In this document: positions 1 through 10,956 of the stretch, piece after piece
How the letters are laid out: every line of letters begins with the position of its first letter
Position numbering within the stretch: position 1 is the stretch's first letter
Assembly (NCBI GenBank): GCA_031287505.1
Contig: JAITSW010000036.1
Span: 1-10,956, forward strand
Source of the DNA: Propionibacteriaceae bacterium
Lineage (GTDB): Bacteria; Actinomycetota; Actinomycetes; Propionibacteriales; Propionibacteriaceae
DNA: 10,956 bases
Direction of reading: 5' to 3'
Program-made: the position numbers and the translations under genes
Notes under the pieces: model-generated
Databases searched by the model: none
What the model saw: the letters and a program-made list of their open reading frames with translations, nothing else
What the model was told of the DNA's origin: nothing

Positions 1-917
1 GCCGAGCCGATATCGGTAAGCGGCGCCGACCCAAAACCGAAAGCCTCAGCCTGTTCGAGAAGCTTGTCGGCACCCAATTCGGCACCCAAACGGGCAAAGC
101 CGGGGTTGCAGGAAACGAGCAGCGCCCGAGCCAGGGTGATTTCCCGGCCACCGCAATTGGCCTTCATCACCTTGTTCTTCGAAACCCGGTATTCGGAGGC
201 GTCGATATGGGTGTTGGGGGTGAGGCCGTCCTCTAGCGCCGCAGCGGCCGTCACCAATTTGAAGGTAGAACCAGGCGGGTAGATTTCGCGCGTCGCGCGA
301 TTGGCCATCGGACGGGACGGATCGGCGGTGAGCTTGTCCCACGCCTGCTTCGAAGCATCCAGATCGTGCGTTGAGAGCAGATTTGGATCATAGCTGGGCG
401 ATGTCACCAGCGTGCGAATCGCACCCGTGGAGGTGTCTAGCGCAACCACAGCGCCCTTTCGTCCGCCCAAAGCCTTCCACGCCGCCTTCTGGGCCTTGGC
501 GACGAGCGTGGTTTCAACCGCCCCACCCTCAGGCTGCGAACCTGAGATTTGGTTTAGCAGTCTTTCAAAAGCCTGGGAGTCGTCGATGCCGGCCAACTCG
601 TTAGACCTGGTCTCTTCTAAGCCTGAACGTTTGTAATAGTAGGAGTAGAAACCGGTGACCGGAGCGTACAGCGGGCCGTCTTTATAGACGCGCAAATACT
701 TGAACCGGTCTTTCACCTTCTCAGATTGCACAACGGGAGTGTTGCCCACCATGATCGGGCCGCGCTGCTGCGCATATTGGGCGTCCAATACCCGGCGGTT
801 ATGCGGGTTGGCGTCCAGCGAATCGCTGTTGACGATGTAGCTCACCGAAGAATTGGCCAGCAAAGCGGCAAACATCAGCATTGCCACGACAGAGACATTC
901 CTAATCGGCCCGTTCAT
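1..917 (-). CDS. pbpA: Penicillin-binding protein A (class B transpeptidase), C-terminus beyond window
   Basis: Class B penicillin-binding protein: a membrane-anchored DD-transpeptidase that cross-links peptidoglycan together with the SEDS glycosyltransferase encoded just upstream (rodA). The visible 305 residues show an uncleaved N-terminal membrane anchor (about residues 5-28), a non-catalytic region with FKYLRVYKDGPLYAPVTGFYS, and the start of the transpeptidase domain with the acylation motif STFK (Ser217-Lys220, preceded by YPPG) and the second motif SCN (269-271). The KTG box and the C-terminus lie off the left edge. The ATG at 917 overlaps the rodA stop by 4 bp (ATGA), which implies translational coupling. 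The order rodA-pbpA and the SCNPGF motif match mycobacterial PbpA. I see no disruption in the visible part. Confidence 0.93.
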   Translation of the reverse strand, partial: MNGPIRNVSVVAMLMFAALLANSSVSYIVNSDSLDANPHNRRVLDAQYAQQRGPIMVGNTPVVQSEKVKDRFKYLRVYKDGPLYAPVTGFYSYYYKRSGLEETRSNELAGIDDSQAFERLLNQISGSQPEGGAVETTLVAKAQKAAWKALGGRKGAVVALDTSTGAIRTLVTSPSYDPNLLSTHDLDASKQAWDKLTADPSRPMANRATREIYPPGSTFKLVTAAAALEDGLTPNTHIDASEYRVSKNKVMKANCGGREITLARALLVSCNPGFARLGAELGADKLLEQAEAFGFGSAPLTDIGS

Positions 918-5081: not shown

Positions 5082-5164
5082 GCGCGAGTGGCGGAATGGC
5101 AGACGCGCACGGTTCAGGTCCGTGTGCCCGAAAGGGCGTGGAGGTTCAACTCCTCTTTCGCGCA
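5082..5164 (+). tRNA. leuT: tRNA-Leu (anticodon CAG)
   Basis: An 83-nt class II tRNA. The 7-bp acceptor stem GCGCGAG pairs with TTCGCGC (5157-5163), followed by discriminator A5164. A D-arm with AATGGCAGAC is present. The anticodon stem is CACGG/CCGTG with loop TTCAGGT, and the anticodon CAG at 5115-5117 reads CUG. A variable arm with GCCC/GGGC pairing and the T-arm GGAGG-TTCAACT-CCTCT complete the fold. CCA is not encoded (the next bases are CTA). Class II form plus the CAG anticodon identify leucine. A tRNA-Leu divergent from fhaA is the same context as leuT of M. tuberculosis. The 3' end is the apparent target of a former integrative element, because part of it is duplicated at 5585-5603. 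Confidence 0.96.
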
Positions 5165-5212
5165 CTAATGGGTATGGCTCAGGTCGAAAGCCTGAGCCAT
5201 ACCCATTAGTGC
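5162..5212 (+). terminator. Perfect 22-bp hairpin overlapping the tRNA-Leu 3' end
   Basis: Arms 5162-5183 and 5191-5212 are perfectly complementary over 22 bp around the 7-nt loop TCGAAAG. The left arm starts in the last acceptor bases of the tRNA. No T-tract follows; the next bases are the 16-bp target duplication of the inserted element. The likely role is a U-less terminator or processing hairpin for the tRNA transcript. A palindrome formed at an integration or recombination junction is an alternative. Confidence 0.6.
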
Positions 5213-5228
5213 ATGAAGATTGCCAGCG
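5213..5228. repeat. 16-bp target-site duplication, left copy
   Basis: ATGAAGATTGCCAGCG, repeated exactly at 5447-5462, immediately abuts the left end of the 218-bp element. The length is at or just beyond the range known for the IS481 family (about 4-15 bp), consistent with transposition of this copy as a discrete unit. Confidence 0.9.
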
Positions 5229-5446
5229 TGTCTGATTCGGGGACATAGTTGACACTTCACGTGAGCCAACGAACCTGCACTGACTAGGGCTTTTTCTTTA
5301 GCCATAAAACAGTCTGCCACTCGACCTAAGTCGCTTTGACTAGACAAATCACCCACTTAGTCGCGAACCAAACGACAAACCCCGAAGTCAGAGCCACGTA
5401 AACAATGACCCAAGACATAGCGTCAACTATGTCCCGAGACATCACA
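5229..5446 (+). mobile_element. 218-bp non-autonomous element with IS481-like ends (MITE), copy 1
   Basis: Discrete element starting TGTCTGATTCGGGGACATAG and ending CTATGTCCCGAGACATCACA. Its ends are imperfect inverted repeats that share the core GGGACATAGTTGAC. It is bounded by exact 16-bp direct repeats. A second copy lies inverted at 8285-8502 with only 3 mismatches in 218. A third related motif lies just inside the right end (5399-5420, GTAAACAATGACCCAAGACA followed by TA). The same sequence type terminates the IS481-like transposase remnant near 10890-10913, so the element is probably an internally deleted IS481 relative. It has no transposase; the short open frames inside it (for example MAKEKALVSAGSLAHV on the minus strand) are at most a leftover N-terminus. 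The boundary call is strong, while the family assignment rests on end similarity only. Confidence 0.85.
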
Positions 5447-5462
5447 ATGAAGATTGCCAGCG
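5447..5462. repeat. 16-bp target-site duplication, right copy
   Basis: Exact duplicate of 5213-5228 on the right side of the 218-bp element. It also begins a 63-codon open frame (ATG 5447 to TGA 5635) that has no Shine-Dalgarno sequence and is not called as a gene. Confidence 0.9.
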
Positions 5463-5591
5463 GAGTTGAACCTGCGAAGGCGCGAGCGTCGGAAGGAAGT
5501 CCGGTGGACTTCCGAGCAGTGAGCGGTCCGAAGCTGACCGGAGGGAAGCTGAGGACGGCGGATTTGCTGAAAGGAAATCCGCGGCAACTCC
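5462..5591. other. Hairpin-rich region enclosed by GGAGTTG/CAACTCC, possible structured RNA
   Basis: The outer arms GGAGTTG (5462-5468) and CAACTCC (5585-5591) are complementary and enclose several local helices. GGAAGTCC-GGT-GGACTTCC lies near 5492-5510, with an alternative TCGGAAG/CTTCCGA pairing around it. CGGTC/GACCG is near 5524-5541. GCGGATTT/AAATCCGC is near 5558-5583. The left arm is contained in GGAGTTGAACCT, which is the reverse complement of the tRNA-Leu T-arm, and the right arm is the start of a direct copy of the tRNA 3' end. It could be a folded non-coding RNA, a recombination site or a decayed tRNA-derived palindrome. No known RNA family was recognised. Confidence 0.35.
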
Positions 5592-5603
5592 TCTTTCGCA
5601 CAC
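5585..5603 (+). repeat. Duplicate of the tRNA-Leu 3' end (att-like)
   Basis: CAACTCCTCTTTCGC is identical to tRNA-Leu positions 5147-5161, and the match continues as ACAC against GCAC (18 of 19 bases). Integrases of the tyrosine type commonly recombine at tRNA 3' ends and leave such a direct repeat at the distal junction. Here it lies only about 440 bp away, and about 220 bp of that is the later 218-bp insertion, so the original element may have been deleted almost entirely or the repeat may mark a nested junction. Confidence 0.55.
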
Positions 5604-5783
5604 AAGCGATTGAGGCTCAAAACAAGCTTGCTTGATTTTGTGCCGATTGAAGCTTGTGACAGGGAGCGTAAGCGATCGAACACAGGTGAATGTGGTTTTA
5701 CTAGGGGAAACGTTGGAGTTCCTAGGAAACTGAGGAAAACGCTACCCTATCGCTACTCTGGCATGGAGGTTCTTAACCACAAA
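5604..5783. other. Intergenic region without a recognisable gene
   Basis: No supported coding sequence. It holds a small T-rich hairpin at 5618-5640 (stem CAAAA-CAAGC / GCTTG-A-TTTTG, loop TT), which could act as a weak plus-strand terminator. At 5735-5748 it holds GAAAACGCTACCCT, which recurs exactly at 8260-8273 inside the 5' part of the HTH pseudogene. Otherwise nothing stands out. Confidence 0.4.
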
Positions 5784-5862: not shown

Positions 5863-7200
5863 TTACTTGACCTGCCAGGTTCCGTTGCGGGCAGAGCCTT
5901 GCCGTTCGACCAAGCCCAAGGCCTTGAGTTTGGCGATGTTGACCTCCACCTGGCGCTTAGTGGTCCCAACCCGCTCCGAGATGACTTGCGTCGTGATGCG
6001 TGGATCAGCCGACATCAACCTCAAGATATTCACTTGGCTCGCGTTGAGCCGGACATCACCGATGTCTTCACCGAAGCGATCACCGAAGTCGACTTCGGTG
6101 ATCGGCGTGGTGAACCGGACCCTGATCTCTGTCCCGGTAGCAACAAACTCAGGCGCGGGATGGCCACCTGCCTTGCAGGCCTCCTCAATCTTCTCGATGC
6201 CCCGCCCCCAGGTCTCTATCTGTCCGGAGCGGAAGAAGGCGTTGGCGATGTTGGGGTTGTGGGGCATGGAACTGTGCCTGGCCAGCAGGTCAGCTACCGT
6301 CCAGTGCTCGGGCAGTTGTCCGACGTTGTAGATGATCACTTCGTCAGGGAACACCTTGATCTGGATCGGGACGCCCGTACCGTAGTCACGGTGGACGATG
6401 GCGTTGAGCACGGCTTCCCGGCACGCGGCAATCGGCACCGGGAACGTCTCAATGCGCTGGAGTCTGTCGTAACTGATCAGGCCCTTGAAGTACTTCGAGT
6501 AGAGGATGTCGACAACCTTGTCGGCCATCGTGATCAGCGAGCCATGCACCTCGTCCATGTACATCAGATCGGCACCAGTCTCGAAGTAGCCGATCTTCAC
6601 GTATGCGCCAATCACGTATTGCTCAGGTTGCTCGTGGAACAACAGCACAGCCGCCCGCTTCAGATAGTCGCCGTCCGTGAGCCGCAGACTACGTAGCAAC
6701 TCCGCATCGCTGACCGCCACGTCTGCCTCGGTCAGCCGCAGGCTGGACATCGCCCTTCGCCGGAACTCCCGAAACGCAACCATGTCGAGGTCTTCAACGC
6801 GGACCTGAGGCACGGGCACACCGTCCCACGTCCGCCCTTGCTTCTTCAGGATGAACTCGTCCAGAGCGTTACCAGTCAACTCCCTGTTCGTCGCACCAGA
6901 GCGGTAGTAGTACTTGCCGTGATAGCTGATCGGATACGGGTACGCCTCAACGGTGATGACCAGGTACTCCAGGCCGCCCTCCTCGCGCAGGTCGACGTCA
7001 GCCATGATGGCCATCGAACTGTTGATCTTGTTGGGGATGTCTTCAAGGAGCCTCTTCGAGTCGGTGAGACCGACGACAGCACCACGGTCGTCCTTGCCGA
7101 TTTCAAGCACGCCGCCCTGCGCGTTGGCGAACCCGCACACCCACTTGAGGTACTCGTCGCGCCATGACGACTTCCACTCGACCGTTTGCTTCTCAGGCAC
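5863..7200 (-). CDS. AlbA_2 (Schlafen-like) / HATPase-type DNA-binding regulator
   Basis: Putative DNA-binding, ATP-binding regulator of the type often misannotated as RecG-related helicase; its biological role is unknown. The 445 residues divide into three parts. The first is an AlbA_2 domain (about 5-120: EWKSSWRDEYLKWVCGFANA, GGVLEIGKDDRGAVVGL, YYRSGATNREL). The second is a HATPase_c_4-like part (about 255-362: REAVLNAIVHRDY, VIIYNVGQLP, HNPNIANAFFRSGQIETWGRGIEKI). The third is a C-terminal winged helix (about 385-445: NASQVNILRLM...TTKRQVEVNIAKLKALGLVERQG). The start is GTG at 7200 with AGGAGG 5 nt upstream. Length and domains look complete. Upstream on the same strand lies an integrase remnant, so the gene is accessory cargo, either a phage/element regulator or a defence or toxin-control gene. 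A 28-bp perfect palindrome (6077-6104) lies in the linker codons before the winged helix. Confidence 0.85.
   Translation of the reverse strand: MPEKQTVEWKSSWRDEYLKWVCGFANAQGGVLEIGKDDRGAVVGLTDSKRLLEDIPNKINSSMAIMADVDLREEGGLEYLVITVEAYPYPISYHGKYYYRSGATNRELTGNALDEFILKKQGRTWDGVPVPQVRVEDLDMVAFREFRRRAMSSLRLTEADVAVSDAELLRSLRLTDGDYLKRAAVLLFHEQPEQYVIGAYVKIGYFETGADLMYMDEVHGSLITMADKVVDILYSKYFKGLISYDRLQRIETFPVPIAACREAVLNAIVHRDYGTGVPIQIKVFPDEVIIYNVGQLPEHWTVADLLARHSSMPHNPNIANAFFRSGQIETWGRGIEKIEEACKAGGHPAPEFVATGTEIRVRFTTPITEVDFGDRFGEDIGDVRLNASQVNILRLMSADPRITTQVISERVGTTKRQVEVNIAKLKALGLVERQGSARNGTWQVK
6077..6104. repeat. 28-bp perfect palindrome inside the regulator gene
   Basis: CGATCACCGAAGTC (6077-6090) is followed directly by its exact reverse complement (6091-6104), centred on GTCGAC. 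It encodes part of the linker PITEVDFGDRF between the ATPase-like part and the winged helix. It has the size and symmetry of an operator or a cruciform, but may only reflect repeated Gly-Asp/Thr-Glu codons. Confidence 0.8.
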
Positions 7201-7277
7201 CGCGGCCTCCTGTCGTCATGGTTCCGATCACGAGAACAATCCTACGGGCTGGGTCTGACAATTCTGGGAGTCGCAAC

Positions 7278-7487
7278 TCACGCCTCCTTGCTCTCGTCGA
7301 TGGTCTCGGAGAGCCTGTCGTAGACGCAGGTCGGGTGTTCATCGGCGACTTCCTGGTAACGCATGGCCATCGTGGCGGTGGTGTGGCCTGCGATGACCTG
7401 AAGTTCGCGGACGGTCGCGCCGGACAGCGCCAGGTAAGTGAGGTTAATCTTGCGTAGATCGTGGAAGTGGAGATCCTCGATTCCGGA
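7278..7487 (-). pseudogene. Tyrosine recombinase (phage integrase) C-terminal remnant
   Basis: The minus-strand frame encodes about 69 residues containing the end of an integrase catalytic domain: LHFHDLRKINL (box II HxLR with the second catalytic Arg), ATVRELQVIAGHTTATMAMRYQEVADEH (the GH motif and the nucleophile Tyr in MRYQ) and a typical acidic tail. The frame is closed by a stop at 7488-7490, directly before the homology begins, and no N-terminal or core-binding domain exists upstream, so the gene is a truncated relic. It fits the duplicated tRNA-Leu end as the trace of a tRNA-integrating element. The AlbA_2 gene begins 77 bp downstream on the same strand. Confidence 0.85.
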
Positions 7488-7551: not shown

Positions 7552-8282
7552 TCAGAATAGCTCAACAGTCTTGGGTCGGCGTGGAACACAGATACTGGCC
7601 GTGCTTGCAGAACAGCCTTTGAGTCGCGCATACGACCAGCCATCCCTCTGCAGACAGATGATCTGGCTCCGATGCTCCGCCAGTTGCGATTGACGGCCCC
7701 GAGCACGAATCTGAACTTCACCATCAACCAGAACCTTCCGAACCGCACGACATCCCATTCTGAAACGCTTCCCGATCTCCGCAATATGCAAACCCTGTCC
7801 GTACAAGGAGATGGCCTCAGAAACTATCGCTGGCGATACCACCTTGGAATGGGGCAATGTTGGAATCCCGTTAAGCCTGGCATGTCGAAGAATTGTGTCC
7901 GTTGTAACTCCACACTCTTTTGCTAGTTCTGCCGCAGGAACATCAGCCGCATACTCGGCAAAAACCTCAGGAGTTACTCTCGAAGGTGGCGGAACAACCC
8001 GTGCTTCTTCGCATGCGCCCGAACCGTCGACTCATGAACTCCGAACTTGCCACCCACCTGAGCCGCTGTCATCCCAGAAGCATAAGTGGCCACCATTTCG
8101 TCTACTTCTGACTGGGTTAAAAAGGTTTGAGCGTTTTCAATTCGCGCAATACAAGCTCCTCTAGCGTCTGAAAATTCGACTTCAGAAGCTGCTCTCATCC
8201 ACTCTGAAGTGGGCTGTGACCAGCGGTTATACAATGCGCGAGCCTGCCGGGAAAGGTTTGAAAACGCTACCCTTGGGAGCAC
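7552..8282 (-). pseudogene. Tandem helix-turn-helix repeat protein, frameshifted
   Basis: Two abutting minus-strand frames (8282-7974 and the frame ending at 7552) join into one 243-residue product if a single base is restored in the GGG of CACGGGTTGTT (plus 7998-8000). The product is a chain of HTH units: SEVDEMVATYASGMTAAQVG with VHESTVRAHAKKHG; PEVFAEYAADVPAAELAKEC with TTDTILRHARLNG; VSPAIVSEAISLYGQGLHIA with GCRAVRKVLVDG; and a decayed fourth, QIICLQRDGWSYARLKG. Actinobacterial mobile-element proteins with two to three such resolvase-like HTH units are known. The GTG at 8282 is not a secure start: the frame runs open into the 218-bp element at 8285, so the 5' end was probably removed by that insertion. 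The C-terminus also looks degraded. If the frameshift is not a sequencing error, the gene is dead or split in two. Confidence 0.7.
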
Positions 8283-8284
8283 TA

Positions 8285-8502
8285 TGTGATGTCTCGGGAC
8301 ATAGTTGACGCTATGTCTTGGGTCATTGTTTACGTGGCTCTGACTTCGGGGTTTGTCGTTTGGTTCGCGACTAAGTGGATGATTTGCCTAGTCAAAGCGA
8401 CTTAGGTCGAGTGGCAGACTGTTTTATGGCTAAAGAAAAAGCCCTAGTCAGTGCAGGTTCGTTAGCTCACGTGAAGTGTCAACTATGTCCCCGAATCAGA
8501 CA
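8285..8502 (-). mobile_element. 218-bp non-autonomous element with IS481-like ends, copy 2 (inverted)
   Basis: Reverse complement of 5229-5446 with identical length and 3 substitutions. The near identity implies recent duplication. Unlike copy 1, it has no matching direct repeats: the left flank is TTGGGAGCACTA and the right flank is CCACCGTCACCGCCAT. One flank has therefore been lost or rearranged. With copy 1 it brackets about 2.84 kb of cargo (5447-8284). Confidence 0.85.
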
Positions 8503-8518
8503 CCACCGTCACCGCCAT

Positions 8519-8678
8519 TGTGATGTCTCGGGACATAGGAAACTGGTGAACCTGCGGTTGTGTGGGTTCATTTTGGTTTTGGGGTGTTTTTGGGTTGGTA
8601 GTCTCGGGTGGTGTCGATGGTGAGTTGTCGCAGGATTTCGCCGGTGTTGGTGTTGATGATGGTGAGGGACTGTGGTGC
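8519..8678 (-). mobile_element. IS481-type insertion sequence, truncated 3' end with transposase tail
   Basis: The terminal repeat TGTGATGTCTCGGGACATAG at 8519-8538 is the outer end, identical to the end of the 218-bp element. Read on the minus strand, the frame from about 8678 to the stop at 8568-8570 ends APQSLTIINTNTGEILRQLT and then IDTTRDYQPKNTPKPK. This is the C-terminus characteristic of IS481-family transposases (TGEILREL...DP..DYQP). The rest of the transposase and the other end are missing, so this is a relic. The inner boundary between about 8675 and 8700 is uncertain. The first 50 bp after the terminal repeat core (8531-8580) recur exactly at 10907-10956. Confidence 0.75.
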
Positions 8679-8735: not shown

Positions 8736-8765
8736 ATGTTCGTTATCCCCCCCACGGAGCGTTGA
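8736..8765 (+). other. Nine-codon leader frame with a C7 tract before the secreted-protein gene
   Basis: ATG at 8736 is preceded by AGGAG with 7 nt spacing, the best ribosome site in the area, and reads MFVIPPTER before TGA at 8763-8765. That TGA overlaps the TTG start of the next gene (TTGA). The codons include a run of seven C (8747-8753). With eight C the ATG would read straight into the downstream gene (MFVIPPHGALIRKAKTVG...). It is either a coupled leader or a slipped or phase-variable start of the main gene. Confidence 0.5.
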
Positions 8766-10165
8766 TTAGGAAGGCCAAGACTGTTGGACTTGTGCTTTTT
8801 CTCGTGATCGCGATGTCGGGATCGTCGTTTGTGGTCGCGCATGCAAGCCCGTCAGTGCCAGTTGCGCCTGTTGAAATGCCGATCTTAGATACCTCTGAAG
8901 TGGAGCTTCCTTCGAGCACAGGCCTTTCGGATGATGTGGCAGCGATAGTCGATGCGGCTGGCGACTACGAGGCGGGCGATGCGGAAGCGGCGGTGGAGCT
9001 TGCGGAAGCAGCGTCCGCTGTCGATGGTGTGGAGTTGGAGCAAATCGGTGAAAAGTTGGTCGCTGAGACTGATACAGGTGAAGTTGTGATTGAAGGCGAC
9101 GGCAGTATCTCCCTTCACGCTGACGGGATGCCGGATATCGGCGTTCAGGTTCTGGGCGACGCCGAGGACGCGCAAGTAGTAGACGGGGCGCTGGTGCAAA
9201 ATGAAATAGCTCCCAGCACCGATGTGGTTACCCGGGCGACTGAAGACGGTGTGCAGATGGTAGCGATTCTTGGGGATGAGGATGCTCCGAACGAGATCGA
9301 GTTTGCTATGGAGCTTCCTGGGTCAGCACGCCTGGTCGAGCAGCTGGATGGCTCGATTGCGATTCTTGCCGATACGGAAGTTGAGACTATCGCTCCCGCT
9401 GAGGCGGAGCGTGTGCTTGCTCAGATCGTCTCAGTACTAGGGCTAGAGTACGACGGCCTCGCCGAGCTGACACCGGAACAAGAAGAGCGAATTGTTGAGA
9501 TACCGTCTCCTGAAATCACAACAGTCATCCAGTCTCAACAGATAGGGCTGATAGATATCCCGTGGGCGGTAGACGCCGACGGAGACTCAGTGGACACGCA
9601 TTATGAGATCACTGATGATGGGATTTTGCAGGTGGTCGACTTCGACAAAGACACAGCTTTCCCAGTGACTGTAGACCCGTGGTGGTCGTGGCTCGTCGCT
9701 TCCGCGCAAAGAATGTTTGCTCTTTCGAATCCTATTGGTATCAGTAATTACTCATTCGCTGTCAAACTCGGAGCTTGGGTGGCAGCCATTACTCTGGCGA
9801 CTAAAGGAAAATGCAGATACGAGCGGGATTGGCCTTTGCAGGTGTGCTGGGGAGGCAAATTGGCAATGCTGGATGGGTACGGTGGGGGAACCACCTATGG
9901 AACGACTTACTATGCCAGCAAAGATCCTCTAACTTTTTCCGGCATGAAGTCAAGCAACGGCAAGCCCACCCAAAAATACAAAGATCTCTTGCAGCATGAA
10001 TGGGTTCACACGCTGCAATGGAAGTCTCTCGGGCTAGGCATGGCTGGGGCGTATTTGGTATCTGAAGGTATCGGGCGTGGGTTGTTGACTGGAGGCAAGG
10101 CTGGGTGTGGAAATATCTTCGAGATCATGGCTGGTTTGAAGAAAGGAGGATACACGAATTGCTGA
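8762..10165 (+). CDS. Secreted acidic protein with HEWVH zinc-peptidase-like C-terminal domain
   Basis: Exported protein of 467 residues with no assigned function. A signal peptide (basic RKAK, hydrophobic core about 7-25, AHA before residue 29) leads into a long acidic region (30-260) and then IPWAVDADGDSVDTHYEI (266-283) and FPVTVDPWW (300-308). This is the prodomain/linker pattern shared by many secreted actinobacterial proteins with exchangeable C-termini. The C-terminal domain (about 310-467) has four Cys (351, 362, 449, 467), a Gly-rich stretch and QHEWVHTLQWKS with the zinc motif HEWVH (412-416). Glu435 or Glu454 (NIFEIMAGLKKGGY) could be the third ligand. The frame opens at TTG 8762, which has only a close GGAG; an ATG at 8736 would be in frame with one more C in the C7 tract. 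The next gene overlaps the stop. A toxin-like or housekeeping protease role is inference. Confidence 0.75.
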   Translation: MIRKAKTVGLVLFLVIAMSGSSFVVAHASPSVPVAPVEMPILDTSEVELPSSTGLSDDVAAIVDAAGDYEAGDAEAAVELAEAASAVDGVELEQIGEKLVAETDTGEVVIEGDGSISLHADGMPDIGVQVLGDAEDAQVVDGALVQNEIAPSTDVVTRATEDGVQMVAILGDEDAPNEIEFAMELPGSARLVEQLDGSIAILADTEVETIAPAEAERVLAQIVSVLGLEYDGLAELTPEQEERIVEIPSPEITTVIQSQQIGLIDIPWAVDADGDSVDTHYEITDDGILQVVDFDKDTAFPVTVDPWWSWLVASAQRMFALSNPIGISNYSFAVKLGAWVAAITLATKGKCRYERDWPLQVCWGGKLAMLDGYGGGTTYGTTYYASKDPLTFSGMKSSNGKPTQKYKDLLQHEWVHTLQWKSLGLGMAGAYLVSEGIGRGLLTGGKAGCGNIFEIMAGLKKGGYTNC

Positions 10166-10656
10166 AGAACGTCCGAGGGGCTTTCCTGTCTGTCGCGGTG
10201 TTTTTTTTGGTGGGTTGTTCTAGCGTTCCCCTCTTTTTCCCGTCTCGGCCTGGCTCACCGGGATATGTTACTGTCTCGGATGGCGGGTACCGCTTGAGCG
10301 TGGTTGATATCTGTCCTTCGTCGTCTTTTATGGAACGAGTGGAGGTCAAGTATTACATTGATGGCGACGATTTGAGCTATGAGGATTTTCCGACGGTGTG
10401 GAGTGCTCGTGCACTCGGGAGTCCGTCCTCGTCGGTGGGATTGTTCCAAGAGAATCCCTCTTGGGAGGTCGAACAAGCAACAACGGATCTTGATTTCAGT
10501 AAAGAAATGGTGTTCGGATGGTATGCCACCACCGGCGAACATAGTTTCAGTGGAGTGCTCACGGGCCTGACTTCGATGGATGTGTTGTCAGCGAAGGGTT
10601 TGGAGGACAAAGAGCGTTTTATCGATGAGATGTCCACACGCCCTTTTACCTGCTGA
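10159..10656 (+). CDS. Small putative lipoprotein, possible partner of the secreted peptidase-like protein
   Basis: Predicted lipoprotein of 165 residues with no recognised domain. The TTG at 10159 is preceded by AAAGGAGG (10142-10149, 9 nt spacing), a much better start than the ATG at 10105, which lies inside the upstream gene and would put a charged stretch before the signal peptide. From the TTG, a basic N-terminus and hydrophobic core run to the lipobox LVGC (Cys20). The rest contains VTVSDGGYRLSVVDIC, an acidic middle and a C-terminal FTC. The gene overlaps the peptidase-like gene by 7 bp, so the two are co-translated. A run of eight T (10201-10208) sits in the signal-peptide codons and is prone to slippage. 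An immunity or inhibitor role is only suggested by the pairing; a substrate-binding or anchoring role is equally open. Confidence 0.75.
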   Translation: MLKNVRGAFLSVAVFFLVGCSSVPLFFPSRPGSPGYVTVSDGGYRLSVVDICPSSSFMERVEVKYYIDGDDLSYEDFPTVWSARALGSPSSSVGLFQENPSWEVEQATTDLDFSKEMVFGWYATTGEHSFSGVLTGLTSMDVLSAKGLEDKERFIDEMSTRPFTC

Positions 10657-10717
10657 TAGGTGACGTCAAACTGGTTGATGCGCTTCGAGTGTCAAGGACG
10701 GTGGGCCGCTAACTCAC

Positions 10718-10914
10718 GGTTCCATATCTGACCGCCACCCATTTGGCTCAACTCGGGTACGACTCAGGTTTTCCTCACCGTGGCGGGGTGCGGGAAACGT
10801 CAGTGCCGGGGAAATCCTCGCCGAACTCACCTCGACCCGGCCAAGGACTACCAGCCACAAAAAAGCGTCAACAAACACCCGAGACACCAACGTAAACAAT
10901 GCCTCAGGACATAG
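10718..10914 (+). pseudogene. IS481-type transposase C-terminal remnant, frameshifted
   Basis: The plus-strand frame from 10718 reads DRHPFGSTRVRL and then SAGEILAELT (to 10831), followed after a one-base shift by DPAKDYQPQKSV and a stop at 10912-10914. Together these match the end of IS481-family transposases (TRV..L...TGEILRELTLDPAKDYQP), apparently with a missing base near 10831. The following sequence CGTAAACAATGCCTCAGGAC is the corresponding terminal repeat. No upstream transposase sequence was recognised, so only the tail survives. Confidence 0.6.
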
Positions 10915-10956
10915 GAAACTGGTGAACCTGCGGTTGTGTGGGTTCATTTTGGTTTT
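10907..10956 (-). mobile_element. End of another IS481-type element, continuing past the window
   Basis: The 50 bp are identical to 8531-8580. On the minus strand they hold the last codons of a transposase (stop at 10944-10946, preceded by the same Pro-Lys codons as at 8568) and its 3' untranslated end. The preceding bases GCCTCA differ from the GTCTCG of the other copy because here the end is merged tail to tail with the plus-strand remnant at 10718-10914. Confidence 0.7.

Follow-up and report, generated by a model that had tools for sequence, protein, structure and literature searches.

A 218-bp block bounded by identical 16-bp repeats lies just beyond a tRNA-Leu gene in a Propionibacteriaceae genome and raises two questions: what kind of element is it, and into what did it insert? 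The window that we analyzed, 10,956 nt in full, is the whole of contig C87, and the assembly from which it comes (1.64 Mb, 267 contigs) is 71% complete. Our main reading, to which we give a probability of roughly 0.8, is that a miniature element (MITE) moved by an IS481-type transposase landed in a member of a family of gene-less elements that nest against tRNA and tmRNA genes at their 3′ ends. The window contains the following features.

5082..5165 (+): tRNA-Leu (CAG), host gene of the nested element (ARAGORN, Rfam tRNA)
5157..5217 (+): long near-perfect hairpin (inverted repeat), 5′ part of the nested element, directly 3′ of the tRNA
5213..5228 (+): left 16-bp target duplication, ATGAAGATTGCCAGCG (exact repeat)
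5229..5446 (+): MITE copy A, 218 bp, TGT..ACA, without a complete internal ORF of at least 60 aa
5447..5462 (+): right 16-bp target duplication, ATGAAGATTGCCAGCG (exact repeat)
5456..5603 (+): folded portion of the nested element, scoring 131.9 bits with model R1, for which it was one of nine training sequences
5462..5472 (+): guide GGAGTTGAACC, which in reverse complement matches GGTTCAACTCC of the tRNA-Leu T-arm exactly
5585..5603 (+): second copy of the tRNA-Leu 3′ end (CAACTCCTCTTTCGCACAC; 18/20 over the last 20 nt)
8285..8502 (−): MITE copy B
8503..8518 (−): ATGGCGGTGACGGTGG (minus strand), ending in 15 bases from the 3′ end of the tRNA-Ser(cga) beside copy C
8519..8674 (−): remnant of an IS481-family element, inner limit approximate; transposase C-terminus at ∼8568-8669
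10700..10956 (+): second IS481-like remnant, C-terminus ..DPAKDYQP.., limits approximate

Structure and copies of the MITE

An earlier note, made from the letters of the window, had described the block as a non-autonomous IS481 derivative with imperfect inverted ends, a perfect duplication, and a second near-identical copy, and our analysis bears out each part of that description. Copy A (5229-5446) starts with TGTCTGATTCGGGGACATAGTTGAC and ends with GTCAACTATGTCCCGAGACATCACA; its inverted ends match over 17 bp at 94% (5240-5256 against 5419-5435), including the exact 14-mer GGGACATAGTTGAC, and the exact direct repeats ATGAAGATTGCCAGCG flank it at 5213-5228 and 5447-5462. Two families of IS481 ends aside, the only other exact plus-strand 16-mer repeat in the window is at 1609/7002. 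Copy B, at 8285-8502 on the minus strand, differs from copy A at 3 of 218 positions (39, 116, and 124).

Searching the host genome, as the note had proposed, recovered copy B and a truncated third copy, C, besides copy A. Copy C, 80 bp long, stands at the start of contig C220 and directly adjoins a tRNA-Ser(cga) gene at its 3′ end. The genome has three MITE copies in three contexts. The proposed search of relatives returned less: 59 other genomes contained no MITE copy, and one 26-bp end match was all that they yielded. An end pattern, run over 391 genomes of the order, matched only in the window's genome and in G042. No further MITE was found in genome_contigs (TIR-pair and end patterns), in viral_contigs (TIR-pair and end pattern), or by blastn of plasmids and phages, collections from which records of this or a very near genome are possibly excluded. 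The note had also asked whether relatives have homologous flanks that carry the 218 bp without the duplication; what we found is a same-genus locus, L118 (G019), that lacks the 218 bp, an outcome that favors the reading given in the note. L118 lies at another tRNA-Leu gene (GAG) and is therefore a homologous, not an orthologous, empty site.

Assignment to an IS481 lineage

By its sequence features, the block is an IS481-lineage MITE, one that adds modestly to known IS481 biology: it combines TGT..ACA ends with a perfect duplication and further copies. To place it, IS481-family loci were gathered from 60 relatives with NCBIfam NF033577 (38 of 60 genomes matched at E ≤ 1e-20), and TGT..ACA pairs with flanking exact repeats were sought in 71 stretches (L021-L091, a few of them overlapping). 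A clear pair was present in 19; the other 52 were left out of the count. Fifteen of the 19 pairs are flanked by 6-bp repeats, of which 14 read NCTAGN and one GTTAAC (L023). The remaining four have GGACAT ends and longer repeats (15 bp at L021 and L045, 16 bp at L042 and L064); the L064 repeats bracket a 2.7-kb stretch with two transposase matches, and L045 is from the same genus as the window. In the MITE, as in L021, L042, L045, and L064, the GGACAT core starts at base 12 from both ends.

According to the available text of PMC10045372, most IS481 members make 6-bp duplications but not a few make duplications of ∼15 bp. Because the relatives duplicate 15-16 bp and members with ∼15 bp are described in the available texts of PMC10045372 and PMC6305408, a 16-bp duplication is normal for this lineage; the note was right to see an IS481-type duplication here, but its range of roughly 4-15 bp needs correction. 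Within the portions of these two papers available to us, the closest parallels are ISArsp8 of an Arthrobacter plasmid (PMC6305408) and the IS481 elements with ∼15-bp duplications, the IS1202 group, and IS481EU (PMC10045372). ISArsp8 has the same end design as the MITE, with a TGTGAT..TC.. start, a 15-bp direct repeat, and repeated GGACATCG-type subterminal motifs ∼24-25 bp apart; unlike the MITE, it is a full-length element of 1718 bp with a transposase. The latter elements share the TGT..ACA ends and the 15-16-bp duplications, and IS481EU is likewise known to have non-autonomous families, whereas the case here is a bacterial 218-bp MITE, and we saw no 4- or 24-bp duplications.

Membership in the CTAG-targeting IS481 group, or in another IS family, appears highly improbable. 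TGT..ACA ends are common to both IS481 groups, and TnRErm46/ISRe46, a CTAG-targeting example in the available text of PMC6794481, shares family and TGT ends with the MITE; its target, however, is 6-bp NCTAGN and its end sequence differs. Copy A is flanked by ATGAAGATTGCCAGCG, a 16-bp duplication without CTAG, rather than by 6-bp NCTAGN, and has the GGACAT core at base 12.

The note had looked ahead to a full IS481 element with the same ends, but no intact one turned up in the 71%-complete assembly, nor did any IS481 transposase at E ≤ 0.001. We therefore infer the parent from the two remnants in the window. The first has 20 end bp (8519-8538) identical to the TGTGATG end of the MITE, and its transposase C-terminus (..NTGEILRQLTIDTTRDYQP) resembles that of L042 (..ATGEILRDLTIDPRRDYQP); the second leads, where the contig ends, into sequence that repeats 8523-8580 at 97% identity. 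Against plasmids, the 33-aa transposase remnant had no match, while the L042 transposase matched 590 records, all at <60% identity.

Flanks of copy B

As assembled, copy B lacks a duplication within the window. On one side it is flanked by the final 15 bases of tRNA-Ser, and on the other by unrelated sequence that occurs only once in the assembly. The left flank of copy B and the right flank of copy C, on the other hand, fit together as a 15-bp duplication. Either a contig was misjoined inside the MITE or the copies recombined; MITE bases 125-218 are identical in A and B and thus give no means of telling their right flanks apart, and recombination between copies would have the same appearance as misassembly. 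The simplest reading is that an IS481 element, and then the MITE, inserted at tRNA-Ser and that C87 and C220 were cut or joined within the identical part of the MITE, in which case the MITE at that site would have TGGCGGTGACGGTGG as its flank on either side.

Taken by itself, copy B without a matching duplication could suggest that the block arose by chance or by segmental duplication, with no transposon involved. We find this scarcely credible given the exact 16-bp duplication of copy A, ends of a known TGT..ACA lineage, and three copies in three contexts.

A possible target preference of the IS481 lineage

Read outward from the TGTGATG end, copy A shows its duplication and then GAGTTGAACC, while copy C shows 15 bp of tRNA-Ser and then GATTTGAACC, which is that tRNA's own T-arm in reverse. 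L165, where a single end was seen, has GACTCGAACC beyond the TGTGATG end, and L042 and L064 have CATTCGAACC beyond the duplication. GAACC, as in an inverted tRNA T-arm, thus lies 20-21 bases from the TGTGATG end at five of nine insertion sites, against a background of 894/219538 (0.41%) at offsets 19-21; since L042 and L064 have nearly the same target, the independent positives number four. The four sites without GAACC at this distance are L045, the G042 site (L021), the right side of copy B, and the IS481 remnant at 8519, whose 16 bp are now followed by the MITE. These counts are suggestive of a preference of the IS481 lineage for T-arm-like sequence beyond the duplication.

A mechanism that would fit is mobilization in trans: an IS481-family transposase from the lineage with 15-16-bp duplications would bind the GGACAT-type repeats starting at base 12 from each TGT end and would insert the TGTGATG end at a point 15-16 bp upstream of TYGAACC-like sequence, which is complementary to a tRNA T-arm. 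Repair would then duplicate the 15-16 bp and, at tRNA-Ser, regenerate the tRNA 3′ end, leaving the gene whole. The MITE thus hints at a lineage that inserts next to T-arm-like sequence while leaving tRNA genes unharmed.

A gene-less element nested at the tRNA-Leu gene

The note placed the block next to tRNA-Leu, correctly, but gave the location too little weight, for the landing site matters more than the MITE. Copy A sits inside a gene-less, structured element that extends from tRNA-Leu to a repeat of that tRNA's 3′ end. The arms of its hairpin (5157-5183 and 5191-5217) are complementary at 93%; as an intrinsic terminator, the hairpin was ruled out by eye, no T run following it. A search for empty sites in same-genus tRNA-Leu loci matched 29 of 30 genomes, that of the window included. 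L118 has the layout without the MITE: the tRNA 3′ end, a hairpin, an inverted T-arm, a structured stretch, and a copy of the 3′ end. Its hairpin is at the equivalent place but differs in sequence from that of the window.

A short motif search found the same layout at Ser, His, Thr, Lys, Val, and other Leu genes. As a pattern allowing ≤3 mismatches, the motif matched 50 of 197 genomes, with a backwards control at least about as frequent; most of these matches are chance or ordinary tRNA genes, and a handful (in G019 and others) are genuine elements. One match in a viral contig, L153, was taken as chance (R1, 16 bits). Twenty of the matches were fetched in addition, one of them being the L118 place again, and we inspected the 30 loci of the motif search with ARAGORN. 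Nine members, including the window and L118, were aligned without reference to structure; L157 was left out for its insertion of ∼70 bp, and L156, L159, L162, and L167 because they are incomplete or decayed. A covariance model, R1, was built from this alignment.

Distribution of the nested family

Of the 293 genomes of the order searched with R1 at E ≤ 0.001, 15 had matches, at 44 places in all, representing 4 of 37 genera and a single family; the other 278 genomes had no match at this threshold, whose stricter filters may lose weak members. Members are also present in G019, G029, and G388, outside those 15 genomes; G186, G267, G281, and G019 are among the genomes rich in them. The window's genome has two: the tRNA-Leu member and one after tmRNA on contig C129 (L217). 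The analyses below use 54 distinct matches at E ≤ 0.01 (59 less five duplicates), nine of which built R1. Seven of the 54 score <35 bits; since scores of up to 23.6 bits are obtained from ordinary tRNA genes in reversed orientation, the weakest matches may be chance. From host copy to host copy, most elements measure ∼140-200 bp.

No nested element was found in plasmids, phages, or viral contigs. Rfam reported nothing over 5463-5603 of the window at E up to 1, and over the elements of the nine aligned loci it gave only sub-gathering matches that start in the tRNA. Matches of the hairpin to miRNA- and sRNA-type Rfam families were rejected as far below gathering scores. Our literature search, thin in its coverage of subscription papers and preprints, found no description of this family, which in our judgment is new in kind and, going by its sequences, presumably mobile. 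In one locus, L155, a DUF3800-XI RNA (Rfam RF02975, 61 bits; 626-673, minus strand) lies ∼0.25 kb from the end of a tRNA-His element.

Host genes, 3′-end repeats, and the guide

Forty-seven of the 54 R1 matches follow a tRNA or tmRNA gene. ARAGORN places a tRNA upstream on the same strand in 43, at 2-134 nt or, in the window, at 291 nt because the MITE intervenes; the other four follow tmRNA. R1 excludes the upstream tRNA, so this adjacency is largely independent evidence. The seven matches without a recognized tRNA or tmRNA include L216, which has a tmRNA-like 3′ end, and L200 and L204, which have tRNA 3′ fragments (all by eye), as well as one at a contig start, the second tandem copy at L209, and a second L177 match with nothing upstream. 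At L207 (G267 contig 44), also one of the seven, a tRNA gene appears by eye to be split in its T-loop by the element, with no restored first copy; such a tRNA would need splicing to function.

Among ten members read base by base, the host 3′ end is followed by a hairpin in seven and a short loop in three. Most members have a second direct copy of the host 3′ end, which starts at the T-loop. In 32 of 54, the host 3′ end is part of an exact repeat of ≥18 nt (L193 and the second L209 match, which have another long repeat, are not counted), and in 14 of 54 no repeat of ≥11 nt was found. Exact repeats continue beyond the tRNA end into the flank, reaching 67 nt at L183 (the maximum), 56 nt at L211, and 46 nt at L178. 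Extension of this kind is frequent, and its reach into the flank makes the duplication look as if it was formed in place.

Directly before the core lies an inverted T-arm of the host, which we call the guide. Of the 54 matches, 40 were scored for agreement between guide and host, 13 having no scorable guide and one being too short; the hosts of the 41 matches used, the short one included, comprise 21 tRNA anticodon types and tmRNA. Beyond the invariant four, 7.8 of nine positions form Watson-Crick pairs with the guide's own host, compared to 5.88 (standard deviation, 0.15; maximum, 6.45) over 10,000 reassignments of hosts. The most variable T-loop base pairs with its own host in 38 of 40 cases, versus 23% for other hosts. 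A comparison of the longest runs pointed the same way (12.9 against 9.0), although only 8 of 37 guides beat every other host on this measure because T-arms are alike. Two tRNA-Ala genes of G020 (L193 and L202) carry cores that are 86% alike, and there the T-arm, guide, and second copy differ together. These comparisons of sequence show that guide and host change together. At L183 and L211, a guide is also present after the second host copy, which could reflect a further element now without its core or a native site that already had an inverted T-arm; a simple single insertion does not predict this extra guide.

Fold and strand

The alignment of nine sequences made without structure yielded a consensus fold of 45 pairs, 29 of which show compensatory changes; the conserved core is made up of several hairpins. 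When the 54 sequences were aligned to R1, and hence fitted to the structure, with nine of them having built the model, 93.4% of cells pair and 40 of 45 pairs have changed on both sides; the covariation score was 0.458, compared to 0.146 for shuffled and ≤0.074 for slid alignments. The core and its covariation rule out plain tRNA pseudogenes. G-U cells outnumber A-C cells by 92 to 31 in the fitted alignment and by 20 to 10 in the unfitted one, and this excess favors an RNA of the tRNA strand.

Possible mobility and origin of the nested elements

Is the element a fixed part of certain tRNA genes? A vertically inherited regulatory trailer would be structured, would lie on the tRNA strand, as it does in all 47 adjacent cases, and would leave the tRNA recognizable to ARAGORN, as it is. 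Yet the nearest core lies beside the same anticodon type in none of 54 cases (permuted mean, 2.1, so that the observed value is not far below it); 278 of 293 genomes have no element at E ≤ 0.001; and among 29 same-genus loci fetched by the tRNA-Leu stretch (L094-L122, whose anticodons are not all confirmed and some of whose contigs end early), L118 has the only R1 match of note. We consider a trailer of this kind very unlikely.

The cores do group by genome: the nearest core is in the same genome for 31 of 54, compared to a permuted mean of 4.3 and a maximum of 16 in 5000 permutations. Four of the 54 had too little overlap and were counted as misses, and three of the 31 neighbors are close copies on one contig (the L209 pair and the second L177 match). 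Gene conversion would be an alternative source of this likeness. The L209 locus (G186 contig 85) contains two nested cores in tandem that are 90% identical.

At L161 and L178, the hairpin on the tRNA side looks like the one that follows the second host copy, but with its pairing perfected, as fold-back synthesis would leave. Together with the duplications of hairpin region and guide at L183 and L211, these loci could be taken to mean that the elements have no dedicated mobility and form where they are, tRNA hairpins giving rise to them through fold-back synthesis and tandem duplication, with the core as a residue. Such an origin seems improbable for a core that is homologous across many host genes in four genera and groups by genome beyond chance.

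A stronger challenge comes from tyrosine-recombinase elements. ICEs, IMEs, and their remnants integrate at the 3′ end of tRNA and tmRNA genes, leaving a direct repeat of that end and an intact gene. Like them, and like cis-mobilized remnants, the nested elements target tRNA or tmRNA 3′ ends with a direct repeat and a whole host; they differ in being gene-less and in having an inverted, host-matched T-arm and a conserved, covarying fold. The nested elements could then be att-type scars or stripped mini-islands, formed by integration at the T-loop of circles that bring a copy of the tRNA 3′ end and so create the direct repeats, with the core acting as a DNA recombination site rather than an RNA. 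Direct repeats up to the tRNA end are the usual trace of tRNA-targeting integration, and tRNA fragments are said to stem from integrated elements, in the available text of PMC9897764; an integrase C-terminus recognized by eye lies downstream in the window, and the tandem copies at L209 would also fit. Elsewhere the evidence runs the other way. None of 19 chosen ORFs beside eight other elements is an integrase by Pfam (4 of 19 were unmatched); a host-matched inverted T-arm and covariation in every helix are unexpected for att sites; the balance of 92 G-U to 31 A-C cells favors RNA (fitted alignment; 20 to 10 in the unfitted one); and in several loci the repeats run well beyond the tRNA end, by up to 67 nt, seemingly having been made in place. 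We regard this origin as possible but doubtful.

The same 19 ORFs, 15 of them with a Pfam match, likewise included no transposase, reverse transcriptase, or shared partner. Their Pfam matches include phosphofructokinase, a response regulator, SmpB beside tmRNA (twice), an FtsX-type permease, and others. Neighbors seen in single cases are an AbiEii-type gene near L212, a PIN gene near L222, and a ribbon-helix-helix (TraY-like) gene near L220. No integrase gene was found within the nested element itself, where ∼140-200 bp leaves no room for one.

Proposed movement of the nested element

In our judgment, the most likely account of the nested element is one of an RNA and a trans-acting protein, with a recombinase-borne circle as its main rival. 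The element would be copied as RNA on the tRNA strand, and its guide would fold onto the second host copy; a protein encoded elsewhere would insert it at the T-loop, and staggered cutting or template switching would duplicate the 3′ end so that the host RNA survives. The guide might either select the target or be written upon arrival. The hairpins of L161 and L178 and the extra guides of L183 and L211 fit neither this account nor the recombinase circle neatly; they hint at fold-back synthesis or tandem copies.

Put together, we lean slightly toward a fuller picture in which several genera of one actinobacterial family would harbor a gene-less, mobile, structured RNA of ∼115-150 nt, re-addressable through an inverted host T-arm, that inserts at the T-loop and has its host rebuilt by 3′-end duplication, while T-arm-recognizing IS481 elements use such elements, as well as tRNA genes, as landing pads.

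Stretches complementary to the target are familiar from the bridge RNA of IS110 and the guide sequences of IS200/IS605. The nested element resembles both in carrying such a stretch, and it differs from both in that we found no associated protein, that the 3′ end of the target is duplicated, and that its hosts are tRNA and tmRNA genes. If the family moves, it would be a mobile element without a protein gene whose address is a short complementary stretch, raising the directly testable question of whether base pairing to a tRNA gene, or to its transcript, lets the RNA select a target or whether insertion writes the complement. Some of the partial tRNA 3′ repeats found in genomes would be explained as a class, and R1 could be used to find the missing protein by co-occurrence.

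Other features of the window

A remnant of a tyrosine integrase C-terminus (HDLRKINLTYLALSGATVRELQVIAGHTTATMAMRYQE, identified by eye) lies at 7250-7480 on the minus strand, cut at ∼7480. It is ∼1.7 kb downstream of the nested element, and outside it; being 3′ of the repeated tRNA-Leu end, it may be what is left of a larger element at tRNA-Leu. The interval separating it from the nested element contains, at 5863-7200 on the minus strand, a gene for a protein with a Schlafen/AlbA_2 domain and an ATPase domain of the RecG C-terminal type. The two IS481 remnants have as neighbors between them the ORFs 8762-10165 and 10105-10656, neither with a Pfam match; the former starts with a stretch that by eye resembles a signal peptide. 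Lastly, the exact 14-mer GAAAACGCTACCCT occurs at 5735-5748, in the stretch downstream of the tRNA-Leu element, and again at 8260-8273, in the flank of copy B.
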